64,000 nucleotides of DNA, taken from positions 248,001 to 312,000 of the forward strand of contig CADCHQ010000001.1 of the NCBI GenBank assembly GCA_902801325.1. Reading direction: 5' to 3'. This document shows, in pieces, positions 8,046 through 57,815 of this stretch. The translations under genes were made by a program, and so were the position numbers. Each line of letters starts with the position of its first letter. Positions within the stretch are counted from its first letter, which is position 1. Origin of the DNA: an uncultured Bacteroidales bacterium (GTDB lineage Bacteria; Bacteroidota; Bacteroidia; Bacteroidales; Bacteroidaceae). The notes beneath the pieces are model-generated. The model was not told the DNA's origin and did no database searches. It worked only from the letters and a program-made list of their open reading frames with translations.

Positions 8046-8078
8046 TAATCGATGAGGCTTAGGCCTGTGGTAAAACGA

Positions 8079-8345
8079 ATATAGGTTCGAGGCTCATCGT
8101 AATCGGACGCAAAGCTACGCTTGCGTAGAGAAACGGAGCAAGAACATAGGTTCGAGGTTTGTCGAATGCAGGTTCGAGGCGTACCGAATATAGGTTCGAA
8201 GCATATCGAACCTAGGCTCGGGGCCTGTCGAACCTAAGGTGCAAAATAATAAGGCCTAAGGCGTTCGGACGGAAGCCCTCAGGTCCTCTCGAATAAGGCC
8301 TTAGGTCCTCCTTTGTAAGACCTAAGGCTTCCTTGTCGAAGGCTT
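8079..8345. repeat. 22-bp-phased repeat array (array A) in the gap before susC
   Basis: The 430-bp gap between the YbjQ gene and susC contains no gene. It is filled by degenerate units with the core AGGTTCGA(G/A)G at 8083, 8148, 8170 and 8192 and AGGCTCGGGG at 8214; the last four are exactly 22 bp apart. The following 100 bp carries CCTTAGG/CCTAAGG-type units (for example at 8261 and 8300), the same second motif seen in array B. A palindrome-centred dispersed repeat (8096-8146) interrupts it between the first two units. Confidence 0.85.
8096..8146 (-). repeat. Dispersed palindrome-centred repeat, copy 1
   Basis: On the minus strand this reads TTCTTGCTCC, a short gap, TACGCAAGCGTAG, a gap, TCCGATTACGA. 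The same arrangement recurs at 20938-20990 and, more diverged, at 23816-23857 and 57126-57172. The core CTACGCTTGCGTAG is a perfect 14-bp palindrome here. No open reading frame is associated. I do not recognise the family. Confidence 0.7.
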
Positions 8346-16847: not shown

Positions 16848-17160
16848 ACTTAGGTCTTTTTCATTAAGCCTTAGGCCTTCCGCCCGAAAGCCTTAGGCCT
16901 AATTTTTTACACCTTAGGTTTAATGAAACTCGAACCTATGTTCATTGTACTTCGAACCTATATTCGTTGTACTTCGAACCTATATTCGTTGAGCCTCGAA
17001 CCTATATTCGTTGAGCTTCGAACCTATATTCGTTGAGCTTCGAACCTATATTCGATTGACTTCGAACCTTAGGCCTTCCGAGATAACCCCTTAGGCCTTC
17101 CGGAATAATCCCTAAGGCCTTCTGAAATAATCCCTAAGGGTTCCAGAATGACGCCTAAGC
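16848..17160. repeat. 22-bp-phased repeat array (array B), the longest
   Basis: The 508-bp gap between the convergent GH85 and rfbB genes holds a terminator and then about 15 consecutive units. CTTAGG-type units start at 16848, 16869, 16891 and 16912. TCGAACC units start at 16930, 16952, 16974, 16996, 17018, 17040 and 17062, all exactly 22 bp apart. CCTTAGG/CCTAAGG units follow at 17067, 17089, 17111, 17133 and 17154. Within each TCGAACC unit, CGAA and TTCG form a small inverted repeat. There are no variable spacers and no gene. Confidence 0.9.
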
Positions 17161-20937: not shown

Positions 20938-20990
20938 TTCTTGCTCCACTTCATTACGCAAGCGTAGGTCTTTGACCATCCGATTACGAA
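20938..20990 (+). repeat. Dispersed palindrome-centred repeat, copy 2
   Basis: TTCTTGCTCC, then TACGCAAGCGTA (12-bp palindrome), then TCCGATTACGA, running directly into the duplicated tRNA-Ser 3' end. It is the closest relative of the copy at 8096-8146. Confidence 0.7.
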
Positions 20991-30727: not shown

Positions 30728-32218
30728 TTAAATTCTCCATGCTTTGGGCATGAAGAGGAACAATACTGTAAAGATCTCGAGACGGCCTACTACCATCAGG
30801 AAGCTTAGCAACCACTTGCCTGCTGCCGGTACATCAACAAAGTTGCCAGCAGGTCCCAGACTGCCTAATGCAGGTCCTGTGTTACCAAAGCTGGACACCA
30901 CAGCACCAAAGATTGTCGTTAGGTCGAAATCCGTGATGAGGGTCATGGCCGCACAACTAAAGATGAGGATAAATACGTAGATGATAAGGTAGGATACTAC
31001 GCGCTGGATATGCCGGTCGTTAATGACTCTTCCATTAAATTTAATGCCGATGATGGCGTGAGGATGAAGAAACGTACGGAATTCACGCATGGCATACTTC
31101 AGGTAAATGAGCACACGCATCATCTTCATTCCACCAGCAGTACTGACAGTACATCCTCCAAGAATCATCATCATGATAGTAGGCATCCAGAAGGGTATTC
31201 CCCAACCGACATAGTCGTAACATTCGGCCTGGAATCCACTTGAACTGATAATTGTAGCAACATGGAACAAACTCGTGCGGAATATTTCCTCGCCTGTCTC
31301 AGGTACTTTTACTCCACTATCGTACATCGAGAAGCGGAACAGCAGGCAGAACACCGCCACCAAGCCCGTGACGGTGAGCAGGAAGGCTTTTACCTCTTCG
31401 TTCTTCAAACACTCGCGTCCGCGTCTTATTGAAATATAGTAATAGATACCGAAGTTAAGGCTGGAAATCAGCATGAAGGTGGCACAAACGTATTCGATGT
31501 AAGATGATTGGAAGTAACCGATGCTGGCTGTGTGTGTACCATATCCGCCTGTAGCTATGGTGGAGAAGGAGAAGCATACGGCATCGAATAAGTCCATAGG
31601 ACCTACCCAGAACATTATTGCGCATATAATGGTGAGAACAAGGTAGATAAGGAGCAGTCGACGAGAGGTGGCACCAATCTTGGGTTGCAGACGATGGATG
31701 GTCAGTCCCGACATCTCGGCTATGAACATCGTGGAGTTCTTCATATCCTTTACGGGTAGCATGGCAAAGGAGAATACCACGATTCCCAAGCCTCCCATCC
31801 ACTGCATCATGCTACGCCACATAAGTATGCCGTGCGGCATAGCCTCAATGTCGGGAATGATGGTAGCTCCCATGGTGCTGAAACCACTCATTGTCTCGAA
31901 ATAGGCACTTGCCACATCTACGTCCAGTCCTTCATATAATATAAAAGGTAGCATGCCGAATATGGAGAAGACCACCCAAGTCAGTCCTACGACGATGAAT
32001 GCTCCACCACGTGAGAGTTGCTTTTCTGTTCGGCCTATATCCGTGTGTCCATAGGCGGTAAGCACAGCACCGCAGACAAACGTGATGGCAGTCGTAATGG
32101 CAAAGGCTTTCCAGTCCTGATCGCCTTGTGTGTAGTGGTAATATAAGGCAACTAAGGATATCGAACCCAAAAACAGGCTCTCCATCACCAATAGCATGCC
32201 AAATATACTTTTCTTCAT
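30728..32218 (-). CDS. trkH: TrkH-family potassium uptake channel subunit
   Basis: The 496-residue membrane protein has about ten hydrophobic segments and the TrkH/KtrB four-fold pore repeats, including MSGFSTMGATI, FSTIATGGYGTH, SSSGFQ and SSFGNTGPALG with the filter glycines. It imports K+ across the inner membrane, usually gated by a cytoplasmic TrkA ring. In some Bacteroidetes trkA is adjacent; here it is not. Confidence 0.93.
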   Translation of the reverse strand: MKKSIFGMLLVMESLFLGSISLVALYYHYTQGDQDWKAFAITTAITFVCGAVLTAYGHTDIGRTEKQLSRGGAFIVVGLTWVVFSIFGMLPFILYEGLDVDVASAYFETMSGFSTMGATIIPDIEAMPHGILMWRSMMQWMGGLGIVVFSFAMLPVKDMKNSTMFIAEMSGLTIHRLQPKIGATSRRLLLIYLVLTIICAIMFWVGPMDLFDAVCFSFSTIATGGYGTHTASIGYFQSSYIEYVCATFMLISSLNFGIYYYISIRRGRECLKNEEVKAFLLTVTGLVAVFCLLFRFSMYDSGVKVPETGEEIFRTSLFHVATIISSSGFQAECYDYVGWGIPFWMPTIMMMILGGCTVSTAGGMKMMRVLIYLKYAMREFRTFLHPHAIIGIKFNGRVINDRHIQRVVSYLIIYVFILIFSCAAMTLITDFDLTTIFGAVVSSFGNTGPALGSLGPAGNFVDVPAAGKWLLSFLMVVGRLEIFTVLFLFMPKAWRI

Positions 32219-32225
32219 TTGAATG

Positions 32226-32268
32226 TTATATGTTTAATGTCAAGTGTTAAGTGTTAAGTGTTAAATGT
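32226..32268. repeat. Heptanucleotide tract GTGTTAA
   Basis: GTGTTAA recurs at 7-bp steps (for example at 32240-32260) in the 52-bp gap between trkH and the radical SAM gene. Confidence 0.7.
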
Positions 32269-32270
32269 AT

Positions 32271-33119: not shown

Positions 33120-36854
<3,735 letters not shown>

Positions 36855-36864
36855 AAGAGGTCCC

Positions 36865-37488
36865 TCAATTTCCGAGTGGGAACAGACCATAGAGGTTGGC
36901 ATCGATGCCGTCAGTAATGGTTTGGAAAGCCTTGGGGTCGTCGCCGAACTTGCAAGTGTCGCCATCGACGATGAGCAGTGGTCCAGTATACGTCTTTATC
37001 CACTCTTCGTACAGGTCGTTGAGACCCTGCAGGTAGTCGATTTGGATTGATTGCTCGTAGGCTCTGCCTCGCTTTTGAATCTGAAAGACGAGGTTTGAAA
37101 TGCTTGAACGGATGTAAATCATTAGGTCGGGCAGTTTAACTAACGACATCATCAGATTGAAGAGCTCCGTATAGTTGTCGAAGTCACGATCACTCATCAG
37201 TCCCTTGTTGTGGAGGTTGGGAGCAAAGATGCATGCATCCTCGAAGATGGTGCGGTCTTGGATGATGTAGTCCTTCGACTTCGATATTTCCACCACATCG
37301 CGAAAGCGTTTGTTGAGGAAATAGATTTGAAGGTTGAACGACCAGCGCGCCATATCGGCATAGTAGTCCTCGAGGTATGGGTTGTTGTCCACGGGTTCGA
37401 ACTGAGGTGTCCACCCATAGCGTTTGGCAAGCATCTTGGTGAGTGTGGTCTTTCCACAGCCAATGTTTCCGGCGATAGCGATATGCAT
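36865..37488 (-). CDS. Deoxynucleoside kinase (dNK/dGK-dCK family), paralogue 1
   Basis: The 207-residue protein has the P-loop GNIGCGKTT at residues 7-15, the DR(S/T) motif in IQDRTIFED and the arginine-rich lid region RGRAYEQS. This family phosphorylates deoxyadenosine, deoxyguanosine or deoxycytidine for salvage. Its neighbour at 37560-38192 is a clear paralogue (matching P-loop, PYLEDYYAD, YLQGLNDLYEE). Lactobacilli use paired dAK/dGK subunits that form a heterodimer; a similar pair is possible here. The paralogues are separated by a 71-bp heptamer-rich gap. Confidence 0.92.
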   Translation of the reverse strand: MHIAIAGNIGCGKTTLTKMLAKRYGWTPQFEPVDNNPYLEDYYADMARWSFNLQIYFLNKRFRDVVEISKSKDYIIQDRTIFEDACIFAPNLHNKGLMSDRDFDNYTELFNLMMSLVKLPDLMIYIRSSISNLVFQIQKRGRAYEQSIQIDYLQGLNDLYEEWIKTYTGPLLIVDGDTCKFGDDPKAFQTITDGIDANLYGLFPLGN

Positions 37489-40346: not shown

Positions 40347-40404
40347 GAAAATGAGAGAATAAAGTACGTCAAATCAAGTGGACGCTTATTCTCTCATTTT
40401 TATA
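40347..40404 (+). terminator. Terminator of the AGCS-mtnN operon
   Basis: AAAATGAGAGAATAA and TTATTCTCTCATTTTT form a 15-bp stem with a T-rich end directly after the mtnN stop. Confidence 0.9.
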
Positions 40405-40421
40405 CCCTTATTCGTTATCCA

Positions 40422-40545
40422 TCGAACGCTTATTCGACGTGCATCGAACCCTTGTTCGTTGTACATCGAACCTAGGTCCATTTATTTTGTGCCTAAGGCC
40501 TTCGGACAATAAGCCTTAAGTCCTCGGGCAATAGCCTTAGACCCA
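40422..40545. repeat. 22-bp-phased repeat array (array C)
   Basis: TCGAAC units start at 40422, 40444 and 40466 and CCTAAGG/CCTTAAG/CCTTAGA units at 40492, 40514 and 40535, the same order of two motif types and the same 22-bp period as array B. It lies between convergent mtnN and the RecQ-tail-like gene. Confidence 0.85.
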
Positions 40546-47877: not shown

Positions 47878-47965
47878 CCTCGCGCGTGCGTGATACCTAA
47901 TTATATGTAACGCACGTCATACTGAACAATTGTCCCCTTTTCATTAAGCCTATGCTCGAGGCGCC

Positions 47966-48045
47966 TCGAACCTGCATTCGATCCACTTCGAACCTATGTT
48001 CAATGAGCCTCGAATATAGGTTCGATTTTCATCGTACTTTTTTCC
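47966..48045. repeat. 22-bp-phased repeat array (array D)
   Basis: TCGAACC, TCGAACC, TCGAATA and TCGTAC start at 47966, 47988, 48010 and 48032, exactly 22 bp apart, in the gap between convergent rodA and the MerR gene. CGAA and TTCG alternate about every 10-12 bp. Confidence 0.85.
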
Positions 48046-48509: not shown

Positions 48510-48569
48510 CAAAGATACAAAACAATTGACAATTGACAATTGATAATTGATAATTATTTTGTAATTTTG
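48510..48569. promoter_or_regulatory. Divergent promoters of the MerR gene and alaS built around a heptamer tract
   Basis: TATCTTTG on the minus strand (48510-48517) and TAATTTTG on the plus strand (48562-48569) flank five heptamers (AACAATT, GACAATT x2, GATAATT x2; 48521-48555). CAATTG is palindromic, so each unit offers TTG on both strands; the TTG at 48540-48542 is 19 bp from the alaS -7 element. Confidence 0.65.
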
Positions 48570-56022: not shown

Positions 56023-56667
56023 ATGAAGAAAGTTTTTCATGCCGCCCTGTTCGACCTCGATGGTGTCATACTGGACACTGAAGGTCAGTACACCCGTTTT
56101 TGGGGTGAGATGGGGCGTAGGTATGTGCCTTCCGTTCCCGATTTTGCCCAGCGCATAAAAGGTCAAACCCTTTTGCAGATGTTCGATGCGTGGTTTCCCG
56201 AACCTGATGTCCAGCGCGACATAAAAAGGCTATTGGACGAATTCGAAATGCAGATGACCTATCCTTATATTAAAGGTGCGCACGCGTACGTGAAGGCTTT
56301 GCATGAAAAGGGTGTGCCTACGGCGATTGTCACCAGCTCGAATCTTTTGAAGATGGAGAATGTCTATCGCCTGCGTCCCGAACTTAAGGAACTCTTCACG
56401 CTTATACTCACCAGTGAGGACTTCAAGGCAAGCAAGCCCGATCCCGATTGCTATCTGTGTGCGGCCCAACGGCTTGGGGTGCCCATAAACGAGTGCGTGG
56501 TGTTTGAGGATAGTATGAACGGACTTCGAGCTGGACGTGCTAGTGGGGCGTATGTAGTAGGCTTGGCTACCACGAATCCGAAGGAAACGATAGCTCCCTT
56601 GTGCGATGAAGTGGTAGATGACTTCGAAACATTCCCCCTCAAGGAGGAGATGGAGGGGGTCCTATGA
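56023..56667 (+). CDS. HAD-superfamily phosphatase/phosphoglucomutase-like protein
   Basis: The 214-residue protein has the HAD motifs LFDLDGVILDTE (nucleophile Asp with the DxD acid), TSSN, and the SKPDPDCY and VFEDSMNGLRAG blocks of the beta-phosphoglucomutase-like subfamily. It removes or moves phosphate on a small sugar phosphate; the substrate is not readable. It overlaps pdxB by four bases, so its substrate may lie near the erythronate-phosphate or vitamin B6 pathway, but this is only an inference. Confidence 0.88.
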   Translation: MKKVFHAALFDLDGVILDTEGQYTRFWGEMGRRYVPSVPDFAQRIKGQTLLQMFDAWFPEPDVQRDIKRLLDEFEMQMTYPYIKGAHAYVKALHEKGVPTAIVTSSNLLKMENVYRLRPELKELFTLILTSEDFKASKPDPDCYLCAAQRLGVPINECVVFEDSMNGLRAGRASGAYVVGLATTNPKETIAPLCDEVVDDFETFPLKEEMEGVL

Positions 56668-57815
56668 AGCTCGTCATCGACGATAAGATTCCGTTCATTC
56701 AAGGTCAGGCAGAACGCGTGGCCGATGAGGTCGTTTATCTGCCAGTAAGCAAGATTGGTCCTGACGATGTGCGAGATGCCGATGCGTTGATAGTCCGTAC
56801 ACGAACCCATTGCAATCGTCAATTGCTCGAGGGCAGTCGAGTGCGATTCATCGCTACTGCCACCATTGGGTTCGACCATTTGGATACGGATTATCTGAAC
56901 GAAGCCGGAATTGTGTGGACCAATTGCCCAGGGTGCAATGCGACTTCAGTGGCTCAGTATGTCAGGAATGCCCTTATCGAAGCCGAAAGGGAAGGGATTG
57001 TAAAGCTTAGCGAAGCCTCGCTTGGGATCGTTGGCTATGGGCATGTGGGTCGTGCCGTTTGCGAGTCCTTGCGCCCTTATGTAAGGGAAATATTGCTCAA
57101 TGATCCACCGCTTGAGAATGAAGAATTCTTGCTCCGACAAGCTACGCAAGCGTCTCCTAACGTCGCCGAGCGAAGGATGAAGAATGAAGGATTAAGGATT
57201 AAGGGTGAGGAATTGGCTATTGCTTTTGAGGAAGAAAAGAGCGGAAACCCTGATACTTCACTTTTCACTCATCATTCTACGTTCAAATCACTCGCCGATC
57301 TCGCCTCTTCTTGCGACATCATCTCCTTTCACACGCCACTGACTGCCGAAGGGCTTTATCCTACATACCATTTGGCAAATGAACAATTCTTCCAAAGCCT
57401 AAAGCGAAAGCCCTTGCTCATCAACGCAGCACGAGGAGGAGTGGTCGATGAGGCGGCTTTGCTCGATGCGATGGACAAAGGTCTGGTTCGCCAAGCGATT
57501 ATCGACACATGGGAGGGAGAGCCCGCAATCAATGGGGCGTTATTAAGTAAAGTGTTCATCGGAACGCCTCATATAGCTGGCTATTCTGCGGACGGGAAAG
57601 CCAACGCTACACTCATGGCACTTCGAGCCCTTGTTCGATGGCAATCGAGCCTAGGTTCAATTGACATCGAACCTATGTTCGATATTCAGCCTCCCTTGGC
57701 TCAACCTGAACGAACCGGTATTTTCTATTCGCCTACAAGCGATTCCGATCAACTGAAAGAAAGTCCGCAAGATTTCGAGAATTTGCGTGGAAACTACCTT
57801 TTACGCAGAGAATAA
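56664..57815 (+). CDS. pdxB: Erythronate-4-phosphate dehydrogenase, with repeat-derived insertions
   Basis: The 383-residue protein has the PdxB layout: TATIGFDHLDTDYL, the NAD-binding GIVGYGHVGRAVCESLRP block, and the INAARGGVVDEAALL and DTWEGEP catalytic segments. It oxidises 4-phosphoerythronate in the DXP-independent pyridoxal phosphate route. Between residues about 154 and 212 an insertion carries a dispersed palindromic repeat (57126-57172), six GAAGGAT-type heptamers (57172-57213) and CACTTTTCACTC-type sequence; the C-terminal region has three in-frame 22-bp units (57623-57688). Homologues have a short loop at the first site. The core residues remain, so the enzyme may be active. Confidence 0.9.
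   Translation: MKLVIDDKIPFIQGQAERVADEVVYLPVSKIGPDDVRDADALIVRTRTHCNRQLLEGSRVRFIATATIGFDHLDTDYLNEAGIVWTNCPGCNATSVAQYVRNALIEAEREGIVKLSEASLGIVGYGHVGRAVCESLRPYVREILLNDPPLENEEFLLRQATQASPNVAERRMKNEGLRIKGEELAIAFEEEKSGNPDTSLFTHHSTFKSLADLASSCDIISFHTPLTAEGLYPTYHLANEQFFQSLKRKPLLINAARGGVVDEAALLDAMDKGLVRQAIIDTWEGEPAINGALLSKVFIGTPHIAGYSADGKANATLMALRALVRWQSSLGSIDIEPMFDIQPPLAQPERTGIFYSPTSDSDQLKESPQDFENLRGNYLLRRE
57126..57172 (+). repeat. Dispersed palindrome-centred repeat inside pdxB, copy 4
   Basis: TTCTTGCTCC, a 6-bp gap, then CTACGCAAGCGT, as in the copies at 8096-8146 and 20938-20990, but read as codons of PdxB. Confidence 0.65.
57172..57213 (+). repeat. In-frame heptamer tract (6 units, 42 bp) inside pdxB
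   Basis: GAAGGAT, GAAGAAT, GAAGGAT, TAAGGAT, TAAGGGT, GAGGAAT at exact 7-bp steps; 42 bp, 14 codons, the same length as two tracts in the GH92-GH28 gene. Confidence 0.88.
57623..57688 (+). repeat. 22-bp repeat units inside pdxB (array F)
   Basis: TCGAGCC, TCGAGCC and TCGAACC start at 57623, 57645 and 57667, exactly 22 bp apart, each with a later TTCGA or TTCAA half. 3 x 22 = 66 bp keeps the frame and encodes about 22 residues near the C-terminus. Confidence 0.85.

Follow-up and report, generated by a model that had tools for sequence, protein, structure and literature searches.

The window, a stretch of 64,000 nucleotides, lies on a 396-kb contig of a 3.38-Mb assembly (28 contigs, 94.7% complete) from an uncultured, rumen-type Bacteroidales bacterium and encodes a 383-residue erythronate-4-phosphate dehydrogenase, PdxB. 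The protein possesses both 2-hydroxyacid dehydrogenase domains (Pfam) and is assigned to PdxB by these domains together with its nearest solved structures, the PdxB entries 3oet, 2o4c and 5dt9, with which it has fold and conserved residues in common; PdxB is also its top NCBIfam family, at 372 bits, which is below the full-length cut-off of 434 bits. The reading frame is open and every column invariant across 46 relatives is retained, in agreement with the original prediction that the NAD-binding and catalytic blocks are intact. The relatives are uncultured Bacteroidaceae and Prevotellaceae, for the most part ruminant-derived, and the genomes compared are assemblies, the majority of them metagenomic; the source genome itself was surveyed through sampled stretches and genome-wide pattern counts.

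Compared with its closest relative, window PdxB carries an insert of approximately 49 residues after the NAD-binding 'NDPPL' motif. That relative, from the yak rumen genome G059, the closest genome, is a protein of 334 residues with 90% identity to residues 1-154 and 83% identity to residues 208-383, and just 4 residues between the two blocks. From the NAD-binding strand to the helix that follows, window PdxB has about 54 residues and 3oet, 2o4c and 5dt9 have about 6. Rather than being shared by close homologues, the insert residues are missing from 87 of the 87 other PdxB proteins. In the AlphaFold2 model (mean pLDDT 88.9), the insert, placed between strand 142-146, which precedes the NAD-binding Asp, and helix 210-216, is the longest weak block (59-79). 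Homology and the model thus agree on a real, lineage-specific insert at a predicted loop outside the conserved core, as had been proposed for the palindrome and heptamer segments, and the translated element within it is predicted to form a tolerated surface loop. The features of the gene, all on the forward strand, are as follows.

56664-57815: pdxB, erythronate-4-phosphate dehydrogenase, 383 aa, open reading frame with conserved residues intact
57114-57127: left part of an interrupted heptamer array (GAGAATG AAGAATT) with a TT target at its end, in phase with the right part
57128-57172: element E, G type, 45 nt or 15 codons, CTTGCTCC-GACAAGC-TACGCAAGCGT-...-GCCGAGCG, exact copy, absent from G059
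57173-57214: continuation of the heptamer array to the right of E (AAGGATG AAGAATG AAGGATT AAGGATT AAGGGTG AGGAATT), its phase matching that of the left part once E is excised
57215-57256: remainder of the lineage-specific insert, no close genomic copy
57257-57277: weak heptamer tract TTCACTT TTCACTC ATCATTC (CACTTTTCACTC sequence), 18 of 34 lag-7 matches over 57250-57290
57623-57644: 22-bp unit 1, coinciding with codons for a conserved helix that reads LRAL here and LEAL in relatives
57645-57688: 22-bp units 2 and 3 (57645 and 57667) in a variable C-terminal loop, common to G059

The palindrome-centred repeat had been placed at 57126-57172, a start which takes in the TT target; 57128-57172 matches TTGCTCC-N7-TACGCAAGCGT exactly. 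The 42-bp heptamer tract given as 57172-57213 is found at 57173-57214, joined by two further units to the left of the palindrome, and excision of E from pdxB restores the unbroken heptamers GAGAATG AAGAATT AAGGATG AAGAATG AAGGATT AAGGATT AAGGGTG. The predicted translation of the insert includes FLLRQATQASPNVAER. A search of the genome with 57215-57256 retrieved no further copies, only weak matches for its heptamer-like end. The CACTTTTCACTC piece reported near 57258-57290 is present, but not as a family of its own, being a decayed heptamer tract of the same kind as 57173-57214 on the other strand.

Element E and its distribution

Element E, which forms two hairpins, consists of CTTGCTCC-N7-TACGCAAGCGT, a short hairpin and a terminal GCCGAGCG (G type) or GTCCGATTA (A type). 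G-type copies are mostly 41, 45 or 49 nt and A-type copies 43-49 nt long, with nearly all copies in the range of 41-51 nt. The source genome holds 135 copies at up to 3 mismatches to TTGCTCC-N7-TACGCAAGCGT, against 9 in a reversed control, and 121 copies of a longer pattern at 2 mismatches, against 0 in the control. The A-type hairpin is perfect in 29 of 33 copies, compared with 10% of shuffled sequences, despite the use of eight distinct stems, and is therefore conserved as a structure and not as a sequence. The majority of E copies are intergenic. Each of the three forward frames is open in 84-95% of G-type copies, which makes the element suited to in-frame insertion in genes.

Elevated copy numbers characterize one clade of the genus (G059 113, G131 72, G044 38, G096 30, G097 25 and G008 25 copies). 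Most of the 139 genomes have few copies or none, and E is also found in two genomes of a second genus. A contig of 126 kb that is classed as viral (IMGVR_UViG_3300028805_000072, L239:10549-10575) contains a single copy with heptamer-like flanks, which reflects either phage carriage or host DNA. Head-to-tail copies with a spacing of 43-47 bp, the upstream ones of the A type, occur in the stretches L155, L168 and L133. An Rfam search with E gave no match above the gathering score (chance-level 17 bits against 50), and in the literature no paper was found which names the element or describes heptamers in Prevotella relatives.

E has also entered other genes. In-frame E together with heptamers is found at residues ~133-173 of a nucleotide-sugar epimerase (L143), where the insert is missing in G008 (92-94% identity), G127, G097 and G131, and at ~347-381 of a U32-peptidase/TrhP-like protein (L170), where it is missing in 7 of 7 relatives. 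The same combination lies in frame in a transglutaminase-like open reading frame (L151), whose sister gene has E in the same loop with other flanks. As judged from these alignments, E and its arrays write new predicted protein segments in pdxB and at least two other enzymes.

Tandem arrays, nesting and the pdxB loop

A 464-kb sample of the genome contains 46 strong period-7 tracts (45 without one masked N run), compared with 1-7 at the lags 4-6 and 8-13, an excess of period 7 over other unit lengths which identifies the arrays as heptanucleotide simple sequence repeats. Many intergenic heptamer arrays are followed, after a few bases, by a TAnnTTTG-like promoter box (window 48520-48558, L128:377-412, L128:2142-2169 and L120:2186-2223), as if filling the upstream promoter region. 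In the window, a 1281-aa open reading frame on the reverse strand (33123-36965) which fuses GH92 and GH28 domains contains two heptamer arrays in open frame, at 33787-33835 and 34433-34475.

E nests in phase inside tandem arrays as a general, genome-wide pattern. In 54 single G-type copies, the 7 bases to the left and the 7 bases to the right of E share an identity of 0.54, whereas mismatched pairs reach 0.38; the signal is confined to k=7. A unit match of at least 6/7 across the junction is found at 41% of G-type sites, compared with 4.6% of random intergenic TT sites (n = 7,813) and 0.9% of TT sites overall; many G-type copies lie outside any recognisable array, and some copies sit in octamer arrays. 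Arrays of 22-bp units are cleanly split by A-type E, with 8 of 33 A-type copies within such arrays compared with 0 of 58 G-type copies and approximately 7% of random intergenic positions. In 99-100% of single copies, E is immediately preceded by TT.

Slippage and random insertion throughout the genome, followed by selection which spares only loops and intergenic DNA, would generate similar distributions with no array preference on the part of E, and the mostly intergenic position of E fits such an expectation. So does the occupancy of PdxB itself, as among the 12 period-7 tracts in 88 pdxB genes 9 fall in the 3.1 kb of the insert-bearing loop (8 species, with differing heptamers), 2 in the C-terminal loop and 1 in the other 80.7 kb, with 0-1 tracts at periods other than 7. 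Heptamer tracts have thus been gained by this loop in 8 of 88 species. The boundaries of the loop were set from its own length variation, so that the period-7 excess there shows tolerance and not targeting, and the repeated gain is best read as tolerance. Yet the in-phase heptamers around G-type E, at 41% of sites as opposed to 4.6% of intergenic TT sites, argue against tolerance as the whole explanation, as does the split of 22-bp arrays between the A and G types, which tolerance alone would not yield; we therefore regard that account as rather unlikely.

PdxB loops of other genomes display further variants. The loop of L004 (G025) contains a different palindrome with inverted heptamer arms (GTTGAAA... 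/ ...CAACTTT), which together form one long hairpin, and a Prevotella PdxB (L101:2918-3024) has a heptamer tract of ~100 bp in the C-terminal loop encoding SSMFNVQSSTFNVQSSMFNVQS. A period of 7 passes through all frames; in the PdxB heptamer arrays of L001, L004, L008 and L079 stops are confined to the two unused frames, and unit variants seem to be kept to avoid an in-frame stop.

The three 22-bp units at 57623, 57645 and 57667 were correctly recognized. This family counts 325 unit pairs genome-wide, compared with 0 in the control. Intergenic arrays of 22-bp period occur in the window at 8075-8330, 16869-17142, 40383-40539 and 47927-48040 and consist of two unit types, TCGAACCTATRTTCG-N7, the one with the 325 genomic pairs, and CCTTAGGCCTTCCG-N8, which often adjoin and both have palindromic cores. 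In pdxB the units lie ~450 bp from the E/heptamer insert; they are present in the pdxB gene of G059 at unchanged length and in none of nine other relatives. A common origin with the E/heptamer insertion event was considered and rejected, since G059 carries the units at the same length. By this comparison the 22-bp units predate the E insertion, and they are probably unrelated to E. A 484-kb sample contains 323 open reading frames of at least 150 aa, with heptamer arrays in 13 of them and in-phase 22-bp pairs in 2, from which ~0.08 genes with both repeat kinds are expected by chance; their co-occurrence in one gene is thus mildly unusual, not compelling. The suggestion that three or four unrelated families target each other in pdxB is not supported, as the palindrome is nested in the heptamers to form a single unit with them, the CACTTTTCACTC piece consists of decayed heptamers and the 22-bp units are older and distant. 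The idea that repeats target each other finds support for E and arrays, in the in-phase nesting, but not for all the families in pdxB.

Insertion rules and mobilisation

Orthologous filled and empty sites allow the insertion event to be reconstructed. Filled sites of the source genome, GGTT-E-CGATG (L128:2802) and TATTTT-E-CGACC (L128:3862), correspond to the empty G059 sites GGTTTGATG and TATATTCGACC, respectively, and a reciprocal pair is located in the window, which holds in addition two A-type copies.

8100-8142, reverse strand: A-type E of 43 nt, in phase within an intergenic 22-bp array
20940-20986, forward strand: A-type E of 47 nt with inverted flanks on either side
32217-32270, reverse strand: empty site, heptamer array without E; the orthologous G059 array (L201:8120) contains G-type E

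In G059, E lies within five heptamers, and the window array is equal at 35 bp of heptamers without E, so that an array can predate E. These pairs indicate that E inserts after TT and adds nothing but itself; the absence of target duplication is based on three clear empty sites, the remaining pairs being blurred by array growth or loss. The target site duplication of DDE-transposase MITEs is consequently not seen at filled and empty sites.

We consider it likely that E is a small non-autonomous mobile element which enters after TT without duplication and is enriched and in phase in arrays, and that the pdxB array had grown before it was hit. A heptamer seed in the pdxB loop, of which two units remain in the sister gene, would have expanded into an array, probably by replication slippage, an origin of heptamer arrays for which published proposals are cited in PMC4679880. 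E would next have entered after a TT of this array, its 45 nt keeping the frame and adding 15 codons, and the position of the loop outside the conserved core may have allowed the enlarged enzyme to be tolerated. Mobilisation would be by an enzyme which acts on hairpin DNA. Searches recovered no Y1 transposase in the source genome (94.7% complete), G059, G131, G044, G096, G097 and G008 and no IS110-type transposase in 12 genomes, the E-rich ones among them. Replication-coupled single-strand insertion would predict a strand bias relative to GC skew, and none is seen in the orientation of E.

An assignment of E to the REP elements, with mobilisation by a REP-associated tyrosine transposase (RAYT), would account for a short imperfect palindrome in more than 100 copies with a fixed short target and no target duplication, like transposition of the IS200/IS605 type. 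We judge it distinctly improbable, as the Y1 domain is missing from the seven genomes named above and both of the tags that mark an end of the REP families in PMC3733652 are lacking in E. The inverse causality, in which E duplicates 7 bp on insertion and repeated gain and loss builds heptamer arrays as its footprints, could explain several single copies with a matching heptamer on each side, such as GACATTT-E-GACATTT (L140) and CATAATT-E-CATAATA (L177). It is very improbable, since no net duplication distinguishes filled from empty sites and the 35-bp array is unchanged with or without E, A-type E sits in 22-bp units without duplication and species distant from the E-rich clade likewise have PdxB loops filled with heptamer arrays. 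Metagenome assemblies fail at repeats, but a misjoining of repeats into pdxB is hardly credible with a frame preserved across 147 extra bases on a 396-kb contig, heptamer tracts in the same loop in other independent assemblies and the same insert type in other genes.

Relation to known repeats and meaning

E resembles Rickettsia palindromic elements (RPEs) and REPs and belongs to neither. RPEs are small palindromic repeats which are found in intergenic regions and in frame inside conserved protein genes (PMC2229807), and E likewise has both kinds of copies; however, RPEs are 105-146 bp long and from Rickettsia (PMC2229807), whereas E is a 41-51 nt element of Bacteroidota which sits 3' of TT, often within tandem arrays. 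As one tested product, an RPE-bearing guanylate kinase, stayed active according to the review PMC2229807, the enlarged PdxB, with its intact core, presumably still works by analogy with the RPE cases as summarized there. REPs are palindromes of 20-40 bp with a GTAG or CGTC tag at one end (PMC3733652; PMC2817692). E shares with them short hairpins at high copy number (121-135), tandem copies and some intragenic positions, but ends in CTTGCTCC and GCCGAGCG or GTCCGATTA with neither tag, and the searched genomes have no RAYT with a Y1 domain. Movement of the IS200/IS605 type leaves no larger target duplication (PMC3733652; PMC2817692), comparable to the insertion of E 3' of a fixed dinucleotide. 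Bacterial MITEs such as Correia, ERIC, RUP and YPAL are similarly small, mobile and non-autonomous, and in some of them an open frame is fused to a gene (PMC2229807). They measure ~100-200 bp, however, and most possess terminal inverted repeats and duplicate their target, whereas E is far shorter and leaves its target unduplicated. Heptamer tandem arrays, mainly intergenic and some within ORFs, are also represented by the TAACTGA heptamers of Beggiatoaceae and by the long simple sequence repeats of 7-nt units of Mrazek 2007 (cited in PMC4679880). Here, by contrast, many unrelated heptamers coexist in one genome, and arrays are landing places for a second element.

As a tentative extension of the mobile-element reading, E might represent an undescribed class of minimal two-hairpin elements which home to arrays by structure or phase via an unrecognised enzyme, with slippage-grown heptamer arrays as safe harbours in genes and the pair writing surface loops into core enzymes.

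Protein-coding palindromic repeats have been described mainly in Rickettsia and Wolbachia, where they led to the question of whether protein sequence can originate from selfish DNA. E is an independent case, found in Bacteroidota of the ruminant gut; its insertion rules are exact, empty sites are available at orthologous positions and several housekeeping enzymes are affected, which together render this question testable. E in arrays provides a concrete pattern of the nesting of repeat within repeat, and serves as a warning that odd loops of metagenomic proteins may be translated repeats.
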